Positions 12,735-24,187 of a DNA stretch of 24,339 nt are shown here, in pieces. Origin of the DNA: a virus; IMG/VR virus record IMGVR_UViG_3300025508_000149, positions 1 to 24,339 of that record. One strand, written 5' to 3'. The notes under the pieces were generated by a model. The model saw only the letters and a program-made list of their open reading frames with translations. It was not told the origin of the DNA and ran no database searches. A program made the position numbers and the translations under genes. Numbering within the stretch: position 1 is the first letter of the stretch; each line of letters starts with the position of its first letter.

Positions 12735-12754
12735 AATTACCAAAAAGGTAATTT
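12734..12754 (-). terminator. AT-rich hairpin at the end of the PhoH gene
   Basis: AAATTACC and GGTAATTT form a perfect eight-base stem around a five-base loop (all T on the minus strand), overlapping the PhoH stop codon by two bases. Only a few T follow on the minus strand, so termination would be weak. It may instead stabilise the PhoH mRNA. Confidence 0.4.
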
Positions 12755-13472
12755 ATGCATCCTCCATAAACGCCCGTACCCACAAGGCGCATAGGTCTGA
12801 TCTCACGATATCATCAACAGTGAATTCAATGATAGGAAAAGGCAGCATTTGCTGCTTTGTCATATGGATTACTTTAGACAACCCGCAGTCATGTGGAATA
12901 TCGGTCTGAAATATATCACCGTCGATAACAGTCTGTGTGTCTTTACCAATACGGGTAAGGAACATCTTCATTTCTTCCACACTGGCATTCTGTGCCTCAT
13001 CCAAGATTACAAAGGCGTTCTCAAATGACTTACCGCGCATTGTCTCGAAAGGCTCAAACACAAGCTCTTCGCACTTCATCATGGCTTCAACTTTCTGGGG
13101 GCCTAGATGCTTCTTCAATACGTCCACTGCTGGTGCTGCCCAAGGTGCTACCTTCTCTTCTAGCGTACCTTTATGATAACCCAAGCCCTTACCTCCTGCA
13201 GCGACATTGGGTCGGGACATAATGATCTTCTCGACATATCCCTGCACGTAGAGGTTAGCAGCATGTGTCATTGCCATGTAGGTCTTACCCGTACCTGCAG
13301 ACCCTACAGTGATAATCATATCCTCTCCCTTTAGACATCGCAGGTATTCAGCCTGTGTAGCATTAAGTGCCACTAAGGGAATGGATTTGGGTGTCTTATA
13401 TTCTGGCGTTATATCCTCCTGTACCTTCTGCTTACGTGTTCTACGTGCGGGACGGGGCTTGATCTTCGCCAT
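12753..13472 (-). CDS. phoH: PhoH-family P-loop ATPase
   Basis: A 239-residue PhoH-type NTPase. Residues 1-30 are a basic tail (MAKIKPRPARRTRKQK). The Walker A motif GSAGTGKT is at 57-64 and the Walker B-like VILDEAQN at 155-162. Between them lies the PhoH signature region SRPNVAAGGKGLGYHKGTLEEK, with downstream IDGDIFQTD as sensor-like segment. PhoH proteins bind and hydrolyse ATP; in bacteria they are linked to phosphate starvation and RNA metabolism, and phages, especially marine ones, often carry them. The exact role in infection is not settled. It is preceded by an extended -10 promoter and stands after the small-gene cluster. The length is typical of the single-domain family. ATG 13472 is the only reasonable start. 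Confidence 0.95.
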   Translation of the reverse strand: MAKIKPRPARRTRKQKVQEDITPEYKTPKSIPLVALNATQAEYLRCLKGEDMIITVGSAGTGKTYMAMTHAANLYVQGYVEKIIMSRPNVAAGGKGLGYHKGTLEEKVAPWAAPAVDVLKKHLGPQKVEAMMKCEELVFEPFETMRGKSFENAFVILDEAQNASVEEMKMFLTRIGKDTQTVIDGDIFQTDIPHDCGLSKVIHMTKQQMLPFPIIEFTVDDIVRSDLCALWVRAFMEDA

Positions 13473-14144: not shown

Positions 14145-14326
14145 TTTTCGGCATCCTTATGTTGTGGGCGCGTTAGTCGGTATCCCTTCACTTCAATGAG
14201 GGTCATAATCCACGCAGAGCCAAAAGATGCACCCGCGCTGACGCATAGGAGTGGATGCCAATCAAACACGCCAGCGAATAGAATGTTAATCGCTGTAAGC
14301 GCCCACATTTTCAGTACATACTCCAT
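14141..14326 (-). CDS. Small two-helix membrane protein (61 aa)
   Basis: A 61-residue protein with two hydrophobic stretches, about 7-20 (MWALTAINILFAGVF) and 24-43 (HPLLCVSAGASFGSAWIMTLI), separated by a short DW turn, and a basic, polar C-terminus (KGYRLTRPQHKDAEK). This predicts a helical hairpin in the inner membrane with both ends cytoplasmic by the positive-inside rule. The start is coupled to the preceding gene by a TAATG overlap, with AAAGAGA upstream. It could be a holin-like, superinfection-exclusion or host-interaction protein, but it lies far from the lysis genes. The function is unknown. Confidence 0.6.
   Translation of the reverse strand: MEYVLKMWALTAINILFAGVFDWHPLLCVSAGASFGSAWIMTLIEVKGYRLTRPQHKDAEK
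14145..14169 (-). repeat. Leader repeat, copy 2
   Basis: The 25-base partner of 13834-13858, with a single difference. It carries the ribosome binding site of the 81-aa gene and overlaps the C-terminal codons of the membrane-protein gene. Confidence 0.85.
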
Positions 14327-14643
14327 TAATCAGTCTCTTTTTTCTCTAAATTACGCAGCCACGCAGCGCACTCTGGACACGGTTCAGGAAATGAAGATGT
14401 TAAGACCCTGCACTGAGGACAGCGATCTGCAACTATCCTGCCGGAGTCGGATATCTCGAATTCTGTTACGGAACCAACGGATTCAGTTGAGAAACTAAGA
14501 CCCAGCCACCGCTCACACTTTTCCCAAGCAGCCTCTGTGGCAAAGCTGTTGTGTGCGCGTATGGCTGTGCGTAACTTATCAAAGTCCCGCAGCATCGTTT
14601 GCACCTTGGCTCCCTGCACAAATAATTTCTGGTCAGCCATCAT
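14326..14643 (-). CDS. Small zinc-ribbon-like hypothetical protein (105 aa)
   Basis: A 105-residue protein. Residues 1-55 are helical (KVQTMLRDFDKLRTAIRAH). A Cys-rich module follows: CPQC near 75-78 and CPEC near 89-92, two CxxC knuckles about 11 residues apart, as in zinc ribbons. The end is charged (LEKKETD). The start is the ATG at 14643 overlapping the preceding stop (ATGA), with AAAGGAG upstream; the adjacent second ATG is equally possible. Zinc ribbons bind nucleic acid or protein, so a regulatory or adaptor role is possible. No family is recognised. Confidence 0.62.
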   Translation of the reverse strand: MMADQKLFVQGAKVQTMLRDFDKLRTAIRAHNSFATEAAWEKCERWLGLSFSTESVGSVTEFEISDSGRIVADRCPQCRVLTSSFPEPCPECAAWLRNLEKKETD

Positions 14644-14903
14644 TCACTCTCCTTTTGATAACACTTTTCTCCACACTCGGGGCATTGAAAGTAAGGGGGT
14701 AGTTTGTTTCCTTCTGTATCGTAACCTTTTACGTAGATCTCTTTACCAAACCTACCTCTATCTGGGCCTGCCCCGTACATATAAGCTGTATCTAGTGCCT
14801 TCTGCCAATCGCCTTCATACTCTTTTAAGAAGTATTCATAAATCCTCTCCCCGTTTAAATCAAAGTCACAATGCACACACTTTCCGTGATCGTCAGTAGC
14901 CAT
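14640..14903 (-). CDS. Small zinc-ribbon-like hypothetical protein (87 aa)
   Basis: An 87-residue protein with CVHC at residues 9-12 and CPECGEKC near 74-81, so two CxxC pairs could bind one zinc with an intervening helical or loop segment (IYEYFLKEYEGDWQKALDTA). The start overlaps the preceding stop (TGATG) and has AAGGA nine bases upstream. It resembles other tiny treble-clef or ribbon proteins of phages, which are often host- or polymerase-directed, but there is no specific match. It lies directly next to another CxxC protein, so the two may work as a pair or derive from similar modules. Confidence 0.62.
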   Translation of the reverse strand: MATDDHGKCVHCDFDLNGERIYEYFLKEYEGDWQKALDTAYMYGAGPDRGRFGKEIYVKGYDTEGNKLPPYFQCPECGEKCYQKESE

Positions 14904-15198: not shown

Positions 15199-17349
15199 CT
15201 ACCTGATCGGACACGCCCCACTTGCACAATCATCCATATCCAACTCCTCTAGAGTATTACCGCTATCCAGATTGATAGGAGACAGCCGTGACACATACTC
15301 TTTGTACACCTCCTCAGTAACTACCTCCTGTGGTAGGTATGCGTAGCCTAGATCCTTAGCCGTCTTCGTTGGATCATTACGATAGATCCAGCTTACCCCT
15401 ACATAGTGATCCCAATTCTCTTCAAGCCACTGAATAATAGCGGGGATCTCTGTGGGGTCGTAGCTGATTGTTACAGAACAGTTATGGTCTACATAGTTGT
15501 CCATCATAAGCTTGTACCGCTCAAGCTGATCTACAGCGGTCTCAAGGTTAACATGCTTACCATCTACAATATCAAACTTAACATCTTCATATGCCACAGG
15601 GAACGTGGCTAGCATGCTGTCAGGCTCAAAAGGCTTCTCAACTACTTTATACCCTGCAGCAGCCAAAATAGGTATCAGAGGATCATTCTTGCTGAAGGTG
15701 ACATTGTTGAAGAGGTATCGTCCCAGAGGACGGTGTACGCCTTCTGTCGTGTCCATGATCTTAGACAAAGTACCTGAAGGCTTAACGGTAGTCACCGCCT
15801 TTGCGCGTGGAAGGCCTAGCTCATCCGCCATGCTATGCGCCCCAGCAGTCGCAGCCTTACGGGCCATCTGTAAGAAGGCCCTCTGGTTAGCTGTATCACA
15901 GAGGTGGTCCAGCATTTTGATAATACCAGTAGCCCCAACCCCACAGAGACGCAGGAACTCATTCAGTTCATGCCATGTACGCTGAAGGATACCATCATCC
16001 AAATTAACGCAGGTCTGGCGATAGTTTGCGCGGGCAATGATACGGATAATGTTGATCTGTTCTTCTGGCGACATATGCAGAAGCTTACCCCAATCCACCT
16101 CTACCAGATTACAGAAGTTGTGATTCCCCAACAGGATCTCAAAGCAGGGATTACCGCCCTTGAACCAGCTAGCTCTCTTCTGTGCGGCCTTGGCGTTAAT
16201 AAACCCCGGCTCTGAACCACCAGCTTCCACCATACGATCAAAGATATACCGCAACTCCCATGTAGAGGGTGTGTTGTAGAATAGGATGCTGTTGTTGGAC
16301 TGCTGTCGGTGTCCACGATCATAGTAGCCTGCGGCATTAGCCCGCTGTAGCAGGATATAATTAATAGGACCACGGCCCGACATAACCTCCTCTTGGGTTA
16401 GGAAGTCTTGGAGTGTCTTTTCTTGGCCCGTCTCTTCGTGGAACAGATTGAAGAAGTTCTTCTTTGCTACGATGAAATCGTCCGCCTCTTTGTCCGTAAC
16501 TGGCATCATGGCAATCTCAGCAGAGCGGCGAGAAGACAGAGTTGTACCGAGGTGGTTCATAATATCTACGATATCAATACGGGTAAGGAGTTTGCCCGCC
16601 CGCATGTTCATTACACGGCAGATATGCACAAATGCGGCACTGATAGATTCATCACCAGAGGAGATCCATCCATACCCTTTCAAGCGGATACCTGCAGCCC
16701 GGACCTCCGAGAAGTCAATGATGATACGATCTATTTTGGTTTTCATAGCCATAAGCTTGCCGATAGCCTTAGACCATGCTTCTGCACTATCTCCAACCGT
16801 CATATGGTACACAGATACAGTAGTACCTTCCTCTACAAGCTTGTAGAACGCCTCTTGGTTATTTGCGTGGCCTTTAGGGTCTCCCTTAACCTTAGCTGAC
16901 CGGATGATACGGATATCCGTCTTCTTGGCAAAGCCATTCAGTGTCCCTACCGTAGGTTCAAAGCCCACACCGCAGCCCTGTAGCAAAAGCCAAAAAGCAT
17001 CAACAACATCATGTACTGTCTCAACCTGCAAGAAACTACAATTGAATTGTGAGGCTTCCCGAAGCTTTGCTACATCTGTACCACCCAACCACAATGTACG
17101 CCCGGATACAGTAGCGATACGCTTGTACATCAGATCTCGTAGAGTATCCAACTCAGCGGTTTCTTTCTCGGTAAGGTCTACATCACCCTTGGCCCGTTGC
17201 CACAACCATTTCTGGTGGTCAATCACACGGTCTACCGTCTGTACCCATGTCTCAAACTCTGTGCCTTCTTCATTAAGAGGTCTATTGTAAGTACGGCGGG
17301 TGATTACGTTTGCGCGTGTGGAGAATGTAGGCATATTGTTAAGAGACAT
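15199..17349 (-). CDS. nrdJ: Class II (adenosylcobalamin-dependent) ribonucleoside triphosphate reductase
   Basis: A 716-residue monomeric class II ribonucleotide reductase, converting ribonucleotides to deoxyribonucleotides for phage DNA synthesis using a B12-derived radical and no oxygen. Residues match the Lactobacillus leichmannii enzyme closely: Cys104 in FNCSFL, the thiyl-radical Cys402 and Glu404 in NPCFEI, and Cys413 in NFCNL, with the same 2- and 11-residue spacings as C408/E410/C419. The C-terminal CASGACPIR (Cys708, Cys713) is the redox-shuttle tail. The length is close to the usual 740. ATG 17349 has GAGGAA upstream. The gene is bracketed by intrinsic terminators, so its expression is probably set by readthrough. 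The host must supply or import cobalamin. It appears intact. Confidence 0.96.
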   Translation of the reverse strand: MSLNNMPTFSTRANVITRRTYNRPLNEEGTEFETWVQTVDRVIDHQKWLWQRAKGDVDLTEKETAELDTLRDLMYKRIATVSGRTLWLGGTDVAKLREASQFNCSFLQVETVHDVVDAFWLLLQGCGVGFEPTVGTLNGFAKKTDIRIIRSAKVKGDPKGHANNQEAFYKLVEEGTTVSVYHMTVGDSAEAWSKAIGKLMAMKTKIDRIIIDFSEVRAAGIRLKGYGWISSGDESISAAFVHICRVMNMRAGKLLTRIDIVDIMNHLGTTLSSRRSAEIAMMPVTDKEADDFIVAKKNFFNLFHEETGQEKTLQDFLTQEEVMSGRGPINYILLQRANAAGYYDRGHRQQSNNSILFYNTPSTWELRYIFDRMVEAGGSEPGFINAKAAQKRASWFKGGNPCFEILLGNHNFCNLVEVDWGKLLHMSPEEQINIIRIIARANYRQTCVNLDDGILQRTWHELNEFLRLCGVGATGIIKMLDHLCDTANQRAFLQMARKAATAGAHSMADELGLPRAKAVTTVKPSGTLSKIMDTTEGVHRPLGRYLFNNVTFSKNDPLIPILAAAGYKVVEKPFEPDSMLATFPVAYEDVKFDIVDGKHVNLETAVDQLERYKLMMDNYVDHNCSVTISYDPTEIPAIIQWLEENWDHYVGVSWIYRNDPTKTAKDLGYAYLPQEVVTEEVYKEYVSRLSPINLDSGNTLEELDMDDCASGACPIR

Positions 17350-18466: not shown

Positions 18467-18895
18467 TTACAGATGCTCTCCGCGAGAGTGCATTTCGATC
18501 AAGTCTTGGATGAAGAATTTCATCTTATTGAGGTCATACAGCGTGTCTGTGCCTTCCTTCTCCCCCAGCCTATAGCAGGCTTTGAAGATGTCCCCGCGTG
18601 ACTTACTCATAGCTTTAGCGGAAATCAGATGGCGCAACTCTGTGGCATGGTCTGGGATGCTGTAGTACTCTGTAGTGCTGCCATCTGACGCCACTTTCAC
18701 ACGGTCTTTTGGTATGTGCATAGAAAAGTACCTAGTGGCATCTGGGGCATGGTCTGTAAGGAATTTATCGGCTCTAGCAATACACAATACACACTCGTAC
18801 TCATTGTGATCTTCCACCTTCCGCAGATCCCGTTTGTGGTAACGCAGGTTACAACAGTGACAGCTACCAAACTCAGACAATCCTAAAGTATTCAA
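18467..18895 (-). CDS. Zinc-ribbon plus DUF3310-like protein
   Basis: A 142-residue protein with an N-terminal Cys knuckle pair (CHCC at 12-15, CVLC near 36-39) and a C-terminal helical segment, DIFKACYRLGEKEGTDTLYD then LNKMKFFIQDLIE, that follows the DUF3310 pattern (a conserved K/R-rich helix, a short acidic loop, then a DL-K-FIQ helix). DUF3310 proteins are widespread in phages, and their role is not known. The start is TTG 18895, chosen because AAGGGAGA lies upstream at good spacing and the TTG overlaps the preceding stop (TTGA). The central YYSIPDHATELRHLI segment matches the usual beginning of the DUF3310 region. Confidence 0.7.
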   Translation of the reverse strand: MNTLGLSEFGSCHCCNLRYHKRDLRKVEDHNEYECVLCIARADKFLTDHAPDATRYFSMHIPKDRVKVASDGSTTEYYSIPDHATELRHLISAKAMSKSRGDIFKACYRLGEKEGTDTLYDLNKMKFFIQDLIEMHSRGEHL

Positions 18896-19245: not shown

Positions 19246-19612
19246 TATGTACTCTTTTCATCATATCCAAGAAGTAGACTGCATCCACTACCGCAAGAGG
19301 CTTTTGGCGATCTGCCTTCATAAACAGTACAGGCTCCATATTAGTAGGGGCGTTAGCCGTGGCCTGTTCGTAGTCTTTATAGATGGCGATTTTAGCCTTG
19401 GCCTTACACTCTACGGATACAGGCAGTAACTTACGGGCTGCAGGAGATAATTGTACGTCTTCTCCCCCAGCACCCATACTTGTGGATTTCACATCATCAG
19501 GTTCAAGCTCCGGGAAACATGCTAGGATGTAATCCCTGACCCATTGCTGAAAGCGACGACCTTTGGCCTTACCAGAGGCTACGGTAATGCGGGGTTTTTT
19601 AAGCTCAGTCAC
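19235..19612 (-). CDS. Resolvase-like PD-(D/E)XK endonuclease (Holliday-junction-type candidate)
   Basis: A 125-residue compact nuclease candidate. Basic residues 10-22 (VASGKAKGRRFQQ) precede a helix. The core motif is GGEDV (Asp52) followed by VSVECKAKAK (Glu68, Lys70), the D...ExK arrangement of PD-(D/E)XK enzymes, then a YEQA helix often present in phage resolvase-like relatives. It could cut branched DNA before packaging, as T7 gp3 does. The GTG start at 19612 has GGAGG upstream and overlaps the Cas4-like gene by eight bases. The fold assignment is good; junction specificity is inferred from size and context. Confidence 0.68.
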   Translation of the reverse strand: MTELKKPRITVASGKAKGRRFQQWVRDYILACFPELEPDDVKSTSMGAGGEDVQLSPAARKLLPVSVECKAKAKIAIYKDYEQATANAPTNMEPVLFMKADRQKPLAVVDAVYFLDMMKRVHNGR

Positions 19613-20489
19613 ACTCCACCCCCTCCATATCGGGATGCTTCACATACCAATGAAAAGCAGGTGACGCAGACTTGCTCATATGAGGTGTCAGTTGCTGTAG
19701 AGTAGGCCAGCAGGCGGCTTTATAGTCACAGAAGCTACAAGCTACTCCTAGCTTCTCTGCACCTGTAGGCTTCTTACGGAAGTACTCTTTCACCGGGGTA
19801 AAGCACCGCTCAAAGGGAAGATCTTCTGTAACGGATGTTACCACATTGGACCTATTAAACCTAATGCGTTCAGCTTCTGCCTTATCCGCCTCTACTTTAA
19901 CTACAGACACATACCCGTTGGATTTATCCATTACGATCCAACCGCCCGGTTTCTTATTCTGTGCATCCGCATAACCGAACAACTGGCCTACATAGCCAAA
20001 GCTGTCACTCTCAGCCAGCCCCCTATACCCCTTTGACCACTTGTTAGCGTAGGACCATTGGGAGGCTGACTTAACGTCATACACTTCACCATCAATATCC
20101 AGATCGCTGTCGCCTTTGATAGTAGTCCCTGCAACATCCAACTCTACACGGTCGCCGTGGCTTGTTACGTCTACTCCTGCGGCCTTCAGGAAAAACCTAG
20201 CGATAACCTCTGCAGCGTCACCCATCAGCATCCGGGTGATGAAGTTGTAAGGCATACGCGATTTCTCGGCCCCAGACTTCTCCATCTGTAACTGGCACAA
20301 GGGCCTACCAATATTAGACATACGGATACGGAAATCTCTGTCCCGTGGCGTTACCTGTTTGCGAAGAGCCTCTTTAAATTGCTCCCCCGCTTCTTCGATC
20401 CATTTATCCTCTACATGTACCTCTTCGCTATTAGAGAGGCGGTCTAGCGTAGAGTGTATCATCGCTTCTATTACATCAGCCTGCATCAT
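19605..20489 (-). CDS. Cas4/RecB-like nuclease with predicted 4Fe-4S cluster
   Basis: A 294-residue PD-(D/E)XK exonuclease candidate. The nuclease core shows GDAAE (90-94), the acidic GDSDLDID (126-133), DVKSAS (Asp138, Lys140) and a Gln-bearing helix (YVGQLFGYA, Gln169). Four cysteines, Cys65 (RPLC) and Cys251, Cys254 and Cys260 (CSFCDYKAAC), have the N-terminal-one plus C-terminal-three spacing of Cas4/AddB-type Fe-S clusters. The enzyme would resect DNA ends, probably for host-DNA degradation or phage recombination. No CRISPR array or other cas gene is nearby, so this is a phage replication-module enzyme. Either of two adjacent ATGs (20489 or 20486) may be used; the second has better spacing to CAGGG. 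Confidence 0.83.
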   Translation of the reverse strand: MMQADVIEAMIHSTLDRLSNSEEVHVEDKWIEEAGEQFKEALRKQVTPRDRDFRIRMSNIGRPLCQLQMEKSGAEKSRMPYNFITRMLMGDAAEVIARFFLKAAGVDVTSHGDRVELDVAGTTIKGDSDLDIDGEVYDVKSASQWSYANKWSKGYRGLAESDSFGYVGQLFGYADAQNKKPGGWIVMDKSNGYVSVVKVEADKAEAERIRFNRSNVVTSVTEDLPFERCFTPVKEYFRKKPTGAEKLGVACSFCDYKAACWPTLQQLTPHMSKSASPAFHWYVKHPDMEGVECD

Positions 20490-20550: not shown

Positions 20551-21396
20551 TCAAAATGGAATCTCGTCAAAGTCACCTTCAAGATCCGCACCATCAGGGA
20601 TAAAGCCCTCATCAAAGTCTTCGGAAGATTTACCAGACATTGAAGCTTTGTGCTTCTTGATGATGGCGTCATTCTGCTGAGAAGTGAGTGTAGAGAAATG
20701 GCGGATAGTATCTACCACGTCCCGGTCCAGTGCTACGGGTACATTCATATCTGTAGTGTAGCCAATGACGTAGTAAGTCACTGAACCCTTCTTCTCTTTA
20801 GTCAGAGAAAGCTCCGTCCAGAAATCCCACATCTTACGACCACGGGGAAGCTTCTTATAGAACTGATCATCAAATGCCATAAAGTTAGCACCACGAAGAT
20901 TAAGAACAACAGGCATATTCTCAACCGTATGCTCATTACCGTCTTTATCTTCCCCCGTGTATGACACCAGACAACTAATACGGCGAGTACAACTGATATC
21001 TTTGTACATAGCCTTACGGTCGTCTGTCATGTCTTTCAGGGTCTTGCTGTCTGGACGGCCACAGCGGACACCCCCCTTCTCATCAAGGAAGTCTTCGTAG
21101 AAAGACGTAGCAAAGACGGTCTGATTGATGAATTTCTCTTCATCAGAGTCATAGTGAGTGTATTGGTAGTGCATCTGCAGGGGACGGATACGTACCGTCT
21201 TCGCATACACGGGTACTTCCTGATCTGTTACAAACCACTGGCCCAAAGGTAGGCGGTTTTCCTGCGCATCTTCTGCGTTGTAGTTCACCTTAAGAGTAGG
21301 TGTACGCTCTTGGGAGTTAAGGGTGGGATCTGCACCGGAGAGCTTCGCCAGTTCATCAATTTCAGCCTGCGTGATCGTGGAGAGTTCAGTAGACAT
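20551..21396 (-). CDS. Phage single-stranded DNA-binding protein
   Basis: A 281-residue protein that would coat ssDNA during replication and recruit replication proteins. Evidence: gene position directly beside PolA and nucleases; a central basic/aromatic region with many beta-type segments (YAKTVRIRPLQMHYQYTHYD, VLNLRGANFMAFDDQFYKKL); and an acidic tail ending GDFDEIPF, the kind of C-terminal tip that SSBs of phages (gp2.5-like) and bacteria use to contact partners. The start is set at ATG 21396, where TAGGAG lies upstream, not at the open frame's earlier in-frame ATG at 21450, whose extra 18 residues overlap the promoter. A dedicated promoter fits the need for high SSB levels. Confidence 0.78.
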   Translation of the reverse strand: MSTELSTITQAEIDELAKLSGADPTLNSQERTPTLKVNYNAEDAQENRLPLGQWFVTDQEVPVYAKTVRIRPLQMHYQYTHYDSDEEKFINQTVFATSFYEDFLDEKGGVRCGRPDSKTLKDMTDDRKAMYKDISCTRRISCLVSYTGEDKDGNEHTVENMPVVLNLRGANFMAFDDQFYKKLPRGRKMWDFWTELSLTKEKKGSVTYYVIGYTTDMNVPVALDRDVVDTIRHFSTLTSQQNDAIIKKHKASMSGKSSEDFDEGFIPDGADLEGDFDEIPF

Positions 21397-21488: not shown

Positions 21489-23657
21489 CTATAAAACTAC
21501 ATCTACCATCTTTGGTACTTCTATAGCTTCCATAGTCATCCAGCTACTACCGCCCTCAATCTCAATATCTAGAGGCAACTCCGGTTCGTAACCCCACCGA
21601 CGATACATATCGTCACCCATGAAATGCATCGCCCAAGTAAGTGCTTCAGCCACCTCTGAGATCTCTTCCGGGTGACAATCAACTACAATGGAGTCGTGTA
21701 CTGTCAGGATGATCTTGGAACGCAGCTTACGGGCCTTAAACGTCTTTAATGCTCGTACACAGGCCAGAGGTACAATATCTCCTGTAGCAAAGCCCTGTAC
21801 GGGATAGTTAACGATTTCTGTTGCTCGGCTTACACGGCCATTAGGATATCTCTTTACGTTGGGGAAGTGATACTCCCTGCCGCTAGGTACACGGACAATT
21901 CCATTCTTAAGGACACCGCTAAACAGTGTCTTATGCCATTCCGCCATACCAGAGTAGATCACGAAGAATTCCCTGAAGTACTTCTGGATATGTTCTGGCT
22001 CATTCGCGCCTTGTCCCCCATAAAGAGGTGCAAATGTATACGCCTTAGCTCCCTGACGAAGGTCTTTATCCACATCTGCTACATCACACTCATTAATGAT
22101 GGATGCAGTCTGCTTATGAACATCCTTACCCTTCATAATATCCTGAATAATCTGTATATCTTTGGATAGCTCTCCTGCGACACGGAACTCCAAGCCACTG
22201 AAGTCTGCCTCTATGATCAGACCATCTTCAAAGCGGCTTGTGATAGCCTTTCGTACAGGGAATTTACCCCCCTTTGGAAGGTTCTGGAAGTTAGGCTTGC
22301 TACACGACAAACGGCCCGTAGATGTTACACACTGATTAAAGTTAGGGTGTAGAAGCCCATCTGGCCGCGTCCATGTCTGGATACCGTTCACGAAGGTGGC
22401 GATGTAACTGGATACAGCATTCAACCTGCGCATCTTGTTCAGGAACTGGATGGCATCCCAATTCTGTTTCTTTTCCGCTTGGGAAAGCAGGCGAGGGATA
22501 ACGTCTTTACCTGTAGAAAAGCCATGGAAAGTTGCATCGCTAGGACGCTCTGGGGATAGCTTCAATCCTGCCACGACACCCGTGGATTTATAGACAACAC
22601 CTGCACCATCACAGTGCGTACAGTTAGGTGGGCGTTTATGCGGCTCCCCTGATTTAGTCAGCTTGAACTGCTTACCTCTACCATTGCATTCAAAGCAATG
22701 TTGCACCGTTGTGCGGTGGCATACGGTGGATATTGCACGAACGGCAGCATTAAACTCTGTACGGCGCATACGGGGCGGATACTTCTTCTTCCCGTTGGGC
22801 ATAGTACCGATGTTAAACATAGCGTGGTGGAGCTTCTTATCGGTGATTTCCCGGCTGTACATAACCTTGGACAGATCAATACCGCTGTTTAGGTTTATTG
22901 GGGTATCGCCCATGACACTGACAACGATATCCTCAAGATCCTTCTTAAGCTGTGCTTGCTCTGCCTTGAATTCTAGCTCCACCTCTTTCAGGGCATCCAA
23001 ATCTATGTTTGCGCCATTACCTTCAATCTCCACAAGGAACAGCAGCATTTCATTCATAAGATCAAAAGTGGGCCAGAGACCTTTATTATCTTCCTCTTTG
23101 AGGTCTTCTAACTGCGCCTCATAGATATCAGCACAGGACACAACATCTGCCTCTGCGTACTCTATGACAATCTCAAGCGGCATAGCTTCAAAGCCTGTAC
23201 CACCCTTGAACAGATCGTGTACCAGATCACCCTTCTTATGGGTTACCTTTCGACGTATTGCAGTCTTCTCTAGAGACAGTTCGACATTAGCCCCCCGCGC
23301 AAAGATGTACTCACCTATCATGGTACACCAGACACGCTCTGGCAGGTCAAAGCCCATTTCTGTGAGCCATGCCACATCGAATTTAGCGTGATGAGCTACA
23401 AGAACATTACTGCGATCTAACGCCTGCTGTAGGGCCTCTCTGCCCATAGGGACAGACTGCTCATTGTGGTTCCAAATGAGGTTTGTGACGGGTGTACGTA
23501 CACCATCCTTAATCTCAAGGAAGTGACCAGACACACAGAAGTTGTCTTCGTGGTAGGGGCTGTTGTCTGTGTCCTCAGTATCTTTGCCTGTAAGCTTCAC
23601 TGCGCTTACAGACGTTTCTAAGTCGAGTACTATTGTTCGTGTGGTTCCATCAATCAT
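21489..23657 (-). CDS. polA: Family A DNA polymerase with 3'-5' exonuclease and an inserted DnaJ-like zinc module
   Basis: A 722-residue replicative polymerase. The exonuclease domain has Asp12/Glu14 (VLDLET), Asp94 (HHAKFD) and Asp171 (YAEAD). The polymerase domain has motif A DFSGLEFR (485-492), the O-helix RQGAKAYTFAPLYGG (Arg534, Lys538, Phe542, Tyr546) and motif C VHDS (653-656). There is no 5'-3' exonuclease domain, as in T7-type enzymes. Between the thumb motif INLNSGIDLSKVMYS (254-268) and STGKDVIPRLL (381-391) lies an insertion of about 100 residues with two CxxCxGxG-type units (Cys321/324 and Cys346/349), like half of a DnaJ zinc domain. ATG 23657 is preferred because it overlaps the upstream stop as TAATG; 14 more N-terminal codons are open but precede the exonuclease fold. 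All catalytic residues are present. Confidence 0.95.
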   Translation of the reverse strand: MIDGTTRTIVLDLETSVSAVKLTGKDTEDTDNSPYHEDNFCVSGHFLEIKDGVRTPVTNLIWNHNEQSVPMGREALQQALDRSNVLVAHHAKFDVAWLTEMGFDLPERVWCTMIGEYIFARGANVELSLEKTAIRRKVTHKKGDLVHDLFKGGTGFEAMPLEIVIEYAEADVVSCADIYEAQLEDLKEEDNKGLWPTFDLMNEMLLFLVEIEGNGANIDLDALKEVELEFKAEQAQLKKDLEDIVVSVMGDTPINLNSGIDLSKVMYSREITDKKLHHAMFNIGTMPNGKKKYPPRMRRTEFNAAVRAISTVCHRTTVQHCFECNGRGKQFKLTKSGEPHKRPPNCTHCDGAGVVYKSTGVVAGLKLSPERPSDATFHGFSTGKDVIPRLLSQAEKKQNWDAIQFLNKMRRLNAVSSYIATFVNGIQTWTRPDGLLHPNFNQCVTSTGRLSCSKPNFQNLPKGGKFPVRKAITSRFEDGLIIEADFSGLEFRVAGELSKDIQIIQDIMKGKDVHKQTASIINECDVADVDKDLRQGAKAYTFAPLYGGQGANEPEHIQKYFREFFVIYSGMAEWHKTLFSGVLKNGIVRVPSGREYHFPNVKRYPNGRVSRATEIVNYPVQGFATGDIVPLACVRALKTFKARKLRSKIILTVHDSIVVDCHPEEISEVAEALTWAMHFMGDDMYRRWGYEPELPLDIEIEGGSSWMTMEAIEVPKMVDVVL

Positions 23658-24187
23658 TATGCAGCTTCCCCCATGGTGGCATGTGTCAGATATCGCCACA
23701 GGCTTGCGGGACTAGATAGTTTTGTGTGTGACAGGAGAAGAGTATTACCCGTTTTGCCCAGATAAGTGAGTTCTGCTGTATCTAGATACCGCTTTTGTGT
23801 CACCCATCCCCGGATAACCATCGTCTGTTCATCCTCTCCGGGGACCACCAGAACACCAATGTCGGCCTTAAATGCCGCCTTACTCTTGAATAAGAGATTA
23901 CCTTCGCGGCTGAAGGCGGCTTTTACATCAATACCGAGTGATCCCGAAAACATATCAGAACCTGCATCAATACCAAACATGAGGGGGTTGTGGTCGAGGT
24001 GATATGCCTTCGCTACTGCGATCTCCGCTTTGATACCTAAAAGATCAATCTCACTATCTTCTCTAACATCATCCCGTTTCTGATTAGCCACCCCTGCAGC
24101 CCGTGCCAGTTGCCACCGCATTGCAGCACCTTGATTGGCCGCTGCTAACTCTGCCCGTGAAAGGACAATACGTACATCATTCGACAT
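23657..24187 (-). CDS. PD-(D/E)XK-like endonuclease candidate
   Basis: A 176-residue protein from ATG 24187. GIKAEIAVAKAY (Glu55), an acidic stretch with Asp74 and Asp78, then GIDVKAAF (Asp87, Lys89) and a beta-rich C-terminal half (IGVLVVPGEDEQTMVIRGWV) match the layout of small PD-(D/E)XK nucleases of the restriction-enzyme-like fold. It could help degrade host DNA or process replication intermediates. The start overlaps the helicase stop by 11 bases and has no clear Shine-Dalgarno, suggesting coupling; a TTG at 24208 would add seven residues and is less likely. The stop overlaps the PolA start. The specificity is unknown. Confidence 0.65.
   Translation of the reverse strand: MSNDVRIVLSRAELAAANQGAAMRWQLARAAGVANQKRDDVREDSEIDLLGIKAEIAVAKAYHLDHNPLMFGIDAGSDMFSGSLGIDVKAAFSREGNLLFKSKAAFKADIGVLVVPGEDEQTMVIRGWVTQKRYLDTAELTYLGKTGNTLLLSHTKLSSPASLWRYLTHATMGEAA

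Follow-up and report, generated by a model that had tools for sequence, protein, structure and literature searches.

The polymerase gene and its thumb insert

The window analysed here is a linear IMG/VR record of 24,339 bases, that is, a 24-kb fragment from a virus known through metagenomics. Its minus strand carries an intact open reading frame encoding 736 amino acids from a GTG codon, or 722 from the ATG at 23655-23657; residues are numbered here on the 722-residue form, and the numbering of the AlphaFold2 model begins one residue later. Profile scores for DNA_pol_A (5e-55) and DNA_pol_A_exo1 (5e-7), together with exonuclease motifs (DLETS, HAKFD, YAEADV) and polymerase motifs (EADFSGLE, HDS), identify the product as a family-A DNA polymerase, and the whole AlphaFold2 model matches Klenow- and Bst-type polymerases. 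The features that concern us are the following.

21489-23699, minus strand: family-A DNA polymerase gene (3'-5' exonuclease and polymerase), from the intact reading frame, Pfam matches and motifs
22857-22883, minus strand: thumb helix H1 (residues 259-267), just after the INLNS motif, from AlphaFold2
22500-22856, minus strand: thumb insert of about 119 residues (268-386) between helices H1 and H2, from AlphaFold2 secondary structure
22572-22718, minus strand: predicted beta-hairpin, its strands at residues 314-320 and 354-362 and its loop containing both zinc knuckles, from AlphaFold2 and matches to the DnaJ central domain
22675-22697, minus strand: knuckle 1, CFECNGRG (Cys321, Cys324), from the sequence pattern, Cys invariant in homologues
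22623-22674, minus strand: loop between the two knuckles, with basic and aromatic residues in relatives (consensus KxKKDGxPYKNxxK), reading KLTKSGEPHKRPPN in the window, from position-wise counts
22600-22622, minus strand: knuckle 2, CTHCDGAG (Cys346, Cys349), from the sequence pattern, Cys invariant in homologues
20551-21396, minus strand: conserved acidic-tailed protein, a candidate single-strand-binding partner, encoded directly after the polymerase

The same gene cluster contains genes for a ribonucleotide reductase (15199-17349), a PhoH-like protein (12753-13472) and a Cas4-like exonuclease (19605-20489), all on the minus strand. It also holds three small minus-strand reading frames with pairs of CxxC motifs, at 14326-14643 (CPQC..CPEC), 14640-14903 (CVHC..CPEC) and 18467-18895 (CHCC..CVLC), which may possibly encode zinc-ribbon proteins.

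The AlphaFold2 model, built from a 70-row alignment, has a pLDDT of 91.8 overall and of 80-94 across the insert. In model numbering it places helix H at 219-248, H1 at 258-266, H2 at 386-395 and helix I at 399-428, helices that we named according to what we take to be the usual Klenow scheme. Between H1 and H2 it predicts two short helices followed by the beta-hairpin (model 313-319 and 353-361). A sequence-only reading of this DNA had already located both CxxCxGxG units at the coordinates given above, and had bounded the insert at 22530-22856, which is right within about 10 residues, the model extending it to 22500. Between the NLxS motif and the beginning of H2 lie 134 residues in the window polymerase versus 37 in E. 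coli PolA, and 43-47, none of them Cys, in phage relatives that lack the insert. Among homologues, the length of the insert varies from 109 to 136 residues, counted from the Ser of N-x-x-S to the G of GF. Structures of the family-A polymerases Klenow and Taq have the H1-H2 loop close to the duplex.

Four invariant cysteines in a predicted DnaJ-like hairpin

Four rounds of collection from phage records and viral contigs yielded 163 distinct insert-bearing polymerases. Cys321, Cys324, Cys346 and Cys349 are kept in all 104 homologues of the first set, in 62/62 of a further set and in the 163 altogether, so that the module is indeed common to related marine phage polymerases, as had been surmised, and no relative has lost its cysteines. 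The knuckles are separated by 21 residues in 88 of the first 104 homologues and by 33 in the other 16 (L012, L040 and 14 more), which carry a 12-residue extension between them of the QVTRQKNGKK.. type. Each knuckle ends in a Gly that is invariant or almost so; its remaining Gly and its middle positions differ among homologues (one knuckle of homologue L014 reads CPDCKKVG), hence the constant signature is CxxC-21/33-CxxC and not a strict DnaJ repeat. Mean identity to the window is about 40% in the insert and 37% in the hairpin versus about 56% in the palm and fingers, making the hairpin, its four Cys apart, the least conserved of the polymerase stretches compared. Since the homologues all belong to one clade, conservation of the cysteines does not by itself point independently to any one function. 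At the DNA level, the degenerate CxxCxGxG pattern occurs three times in the window versus 0.27 expected from shuffles, the third match being on the plus strand, on the non-coding side of the polymerase gene.

The resemblance to the DnaJ Cys-rich domain is recovered by several methods. The window insert alone scores 22 bits against PF00684, below the Pfam cut-off of 32.7, and PF00684 matches 70/70 members of the insert alignment at E <= 0.1 (best 1.5e-7). A search of the insert profile against the PDB puts the Cys-rich domain of E. coli DnaJ (1exk) on top with an E-value of 0.0059, with weaker matches to antiterminator Q and anti-TRAP, and hhalign aligns the insert to DnaJ motifs II-III (87%). 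With the isolated insert as a query, Foldseek returns DNAJA2 first, with a probability of 1.00 but an E-value of 0.16; weak values are to be expected, as the module is only about 40 residues long. In DnaJ, motifs II and III make up one complete zinc site, and the insert may be read as one DnaJ-like zinc site, acquired through descent or convergence. In the predicted hairpin the two knuckles come together much as they do in DnaJ, instead of leaving the four Cys apart, and these invariant candidate ligands thus sit in a fold able to gather them. Invariant ligands and predicted fold together make a structural, zinc-binding role of the insert very likely. The earlier proposal of a DnaJ-like CxxCxGxG zinc module in the thumb is therefore borne out by conservation, profile matches and model alike.

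A published marker and an insert-less sister group

The module is real, but as a discovery it had been anticipated, a point on which the sequence-only reading was silent. The same architecture was described in 2019 (PMC6918029) and 2022 (PMC9038755), and credited there to the HMO-2011 paper. The latter article takes as a criterion for HMO-2011-type phages, which it describes as dominant and widespread in the ocean, a partial DnaJ central domain that lies between exonuclease and polymerase and contains two CXXCXGXG motifs; its text, as far as covered here, raises the binding of zinc and the part played by DnaJ in the replication of lambda, and reports no test of insert function (PMC9038755). 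The GenBank entry of HMO-2011 lists PF00684 for the polymerase gene, and a survey of viral PolA mentions neither DnaJ nor thumb. Mosaic phages have also been reported (PMC8528129). The DnaJ of Poorviridae (PMC11654794) was considered as an instance of the same thing and rejected: it is a separate chaperone gene and not a polymerase insert.

The window polymerase shows this very combination, being a family-A enzyme with a 3'-5' exonuclease whose two CXXCXGXG motifs form a partial DnaJ domain between the exonuclease and polymerase domains, and with the insert excluded it groups with the HMO-2011 and CRP polymerases (support 78, moderate). Its nearest relatives are one identical contig and then metagenomic contigs at about 60-63%. 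The architecture itself is thus not new. What we add, and what is absent from the earlier descriptions in the parts available, is the exact placement in the thumb, an insert-less sister group one branch away, and the charge pattern described below.

Used alone as a query, the insert retrieved only the 12 HMO-2011-type records among 50,697 phage records, and at this search sensitivity no spread to other proteins was found in them; a search for the polymerase in bacterial and archaeal genomes returned nothing. In a tree of the polymerase core built without the insert, a single branch separates 78/78 insert-bearing from 18/18 insert-less rows (support 78, moderate), which is compatible with a single gain, and no loss appears within the insert-bearing clade. 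Among other family-A polymerases, those of the Methylophilales phage MEP402 (L046 404-1573, 1805-2515), ctOsX528 (L047 389-1549, 1968-2513) and Alcaligenes phage QDWS535 (L049 257-1447, 1447-2172) are annotated as two reading frames, the first with exonuclease and thumb and the second with palm and fingers, with a small unrelated reading frame in between in MEP402 and ctOsX528; in all three, the H1-H2 loop is intermediate in length and has no Cys pairs.

A basic insert in an acidic polymerase

In the window, the insert has a net charge of +13 and the remaining protein one of -25. The charge of the insert ranges from +8 to +21 across 104 homologues, and in 89 of them it is more basic than any non-overlapping stretch of equal length. 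A second homologue set gives a mean of +12.3 for the insert and of -13.3 for the rest of the protein. In insert-less polymerases, the H1-H2 loop carries -1 to +5 and the whole protein +1.6, so outside their insert the insert-bearing enzymes are far more acidic (about -13) than their insert-less relatives are as a whole. The contrast looks as though the basic surface of the polymerase had moved to the insert. Among relatives in two homologue sets, positions 315, 332 and 334 are nearly always Lys or Arg and position 340 is nearly always aromatic; the window departs from the commonest residues with T334 instead of Lys and H340 instead of Tyr or Phe. We regard this charge pattern as the best clue to function: to judge from the sequences, it is the insert that brings the basic surface.

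Possible functions of the insert

A processivity device would be compatible with so strong and conserved a positive charge. Starting from what is directly supported (the position of the insert, the invariance of its cysteines, its predicted DnaJ-like fold, its charge and the single change on the tree), we infer a bound zinc, a contact with DNA and an effect on processivity. Cys321, Cys324, Cys346 and Cys349 would hold one zinc ion, as DnaJ motifs II and III do; the zinc would staple the tip of a basic beta-hairpin that has been added to the H1-H2 loop of the thumb; the hairpin would extend to the primer-template duplex or to the adjoining single strand; and the conserved Lys/Arg and aromatic residues would add to the hold on DNA, providing a built-in aid to processivity that dispenses with thioredoxin. 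This zinc-stapled hairpin adding grip on DNA is the reading that we favour, with about an even chance of being right. Were the insert to raise processivity, polymerase engineering might benefit from it as well.

The hairpin could instead be a dock for the acidic C-terminal tail of the neighbouring protein or of the helicase, with zinc serving only to shape it. The same conserved positive charge would suit this role, and in T7 gp5 it is the basic loop for thioredoxin that binds gp4 and gp2.5. The product of 20551-21396 ends in ...DLEGDFDEIPF, and its DFDEIPF tail resembles, in our estimation, those of bacterial SSBs. Across its family the tail is acidic (mean charge of -5 over the last 20 residues, n=79 in the first homologue set), and a member is encoded at the same place, just downstream of the polymerase, in 79 loci of the first set and in 64/68 loci of the second, insert-bearing set. 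It is the conservation of this acidic-tailed neighbour that makes docking an alternative to take seriously beside direct contact with DNA. The family is missing from all 16 insert-less loci, yet these hold other genes after the polymerase, several of them with acidic tails, and the link between neighbour and insert is therefore clade-wide rather than specific. Besides, the window protein has no Pfam, PHROG or PDB match, so we rejected its assignment to a known SSB family; that it is possibly a phage single-strand-binding protein is a guess. Tail binding would not need the conserved aromatic residue of the loop either. We consider docking possible, and the chief competitor of DNA grip, though less likely than not.

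The other explanations fare worse. The low identity of the insert and its variable length (109-136 residues) would fit a structural loop of no distinct function, retained for folding. Invariant cysteines and near-constant basic and aromatic positions across deep divergence, and the fact that the tree records no loss, make this improbable.

The sequence-only reading had also entertained a redox-sensitive or partner-binding insert. In the form considered here, the insert would be a redox switch or a thioredoxin-type partner site, and zinc release or disulphide formation would alter processivity. CxxC pairs are capable of redox activity, and a weak thiol-reductase activity has been reported for DnaJ (PMC4428491). 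Among insert-less phages, Stenotrophomonas phage StenR_269 encodes a thioredoxin-domain protein immediately before its polymerase (L048 1-219), a gene that its relatives do not share, and an exchange of thioredoxin for zinc was considered on this account. We dropped the idea, as no thioredoxin gene was found in the other 15 insert-less contigs, many of them fragments, or in nine insert-bearing isolate genomes; StenR_269 is therefore an exception and not part of a pattern. The glutaredoxin encoded by 4/9 isolates is equally explained by ribonucleotide reductase, and the conserved final Gly of the knuckles is typical of structural zinc knuckles. With no tie between thioredoxin genes and the presence of the insert, a redox or thioredoxin role finds no support and is, in our view, very improbable.

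Least probable of all, and hardly credible, is that the module recruits the host DnaK or itself chaperones, for although the name DnaJ suggests as much, DnaJ Cys-rich domains are its best sequence and fold matches and the lambda parallel has been raised (PMC9038755), the polymerase has a counterpart of just one DnaJ zinc site out of two and no J-domain (no match in a Pfam domain search), and CxxCxGxG hairpins are known from the unrelated anti-TRAP and phage antiterminator Q.

Comparison with known systems

The polymerases of HMO-2011, CRP-1/2/3, CRP-235, HTVC033P and others have the same domain order as the window polymerase and are 34-55% identical to it over about 700 residues. The window polymerase is a separate, metagenomic member of this group, whose nearest isolate is CRP-235, at 55%. 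The nearest family-A polymerases found without the insert, those of StenR_269 and VpV262-like phages (StenR_269 being 29% identical to the window), have in its place a 44-residue H1-H2 stretch without Cys and are followed by a different gene.

With the DnaJ Cys-rich domain (PF00684; 1exk, DNAJA2), the insert shares the CxxCxGxG hairpins and the alignment to motifs II-III. It differs from it in having two motifs only, where DnaJ has four motifs and two zinc ions, and in sitting inside a polymerase, without a J-domain and below the Pfam cut-off. In the literature covered here, the module has so far served as a marker of HMO-2011-type phages, with no tested function. With its exact placement, a clean insert-less sister group and the charge pattern in hand, what had been an odd DnaJ domain becomes a hypothesis, open to testing, on how the polymerase grips DNA or docks partners.

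The closest functional parallel is T7 gp5, likewise a phage family-A polymerase with an insert rich in basic residues in the thumb. The T7 insert comes before the FNPSS motif (FNPSSRDHIQ, from residue 334) and lies between helices H and H1, whereas that of the window follows INLNS and lies between H1 and H2; the two therefore occupy neighbouring but different loops, as the sequence-only reading had maintained. Because MAFFT misaligned T7 across the insert region, we located the T7 site by inspecting the gp5 sequence itself. The T7 stretch has one Cys and no CxxC, unlike the two CxxC pairs found here, and T7 relies on a thioredoxin-binding domain, while the insert-bearing phages have no thioredoxin of their own (0/9 isolate genomes). 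We tentatively suggest, at rather less than even confidence, that the family-A replicases of one dominant group of marine phages have a second and independent kind of processivity device in the thumb, a self-contained, zinc-stapled basic H1-H2 hairpin acting through DNA or through the acidic tails of the replisome. If this is true, the H1-H2 hairpin would do in these phages the job that the thioredoxin-bound loop does in T7.
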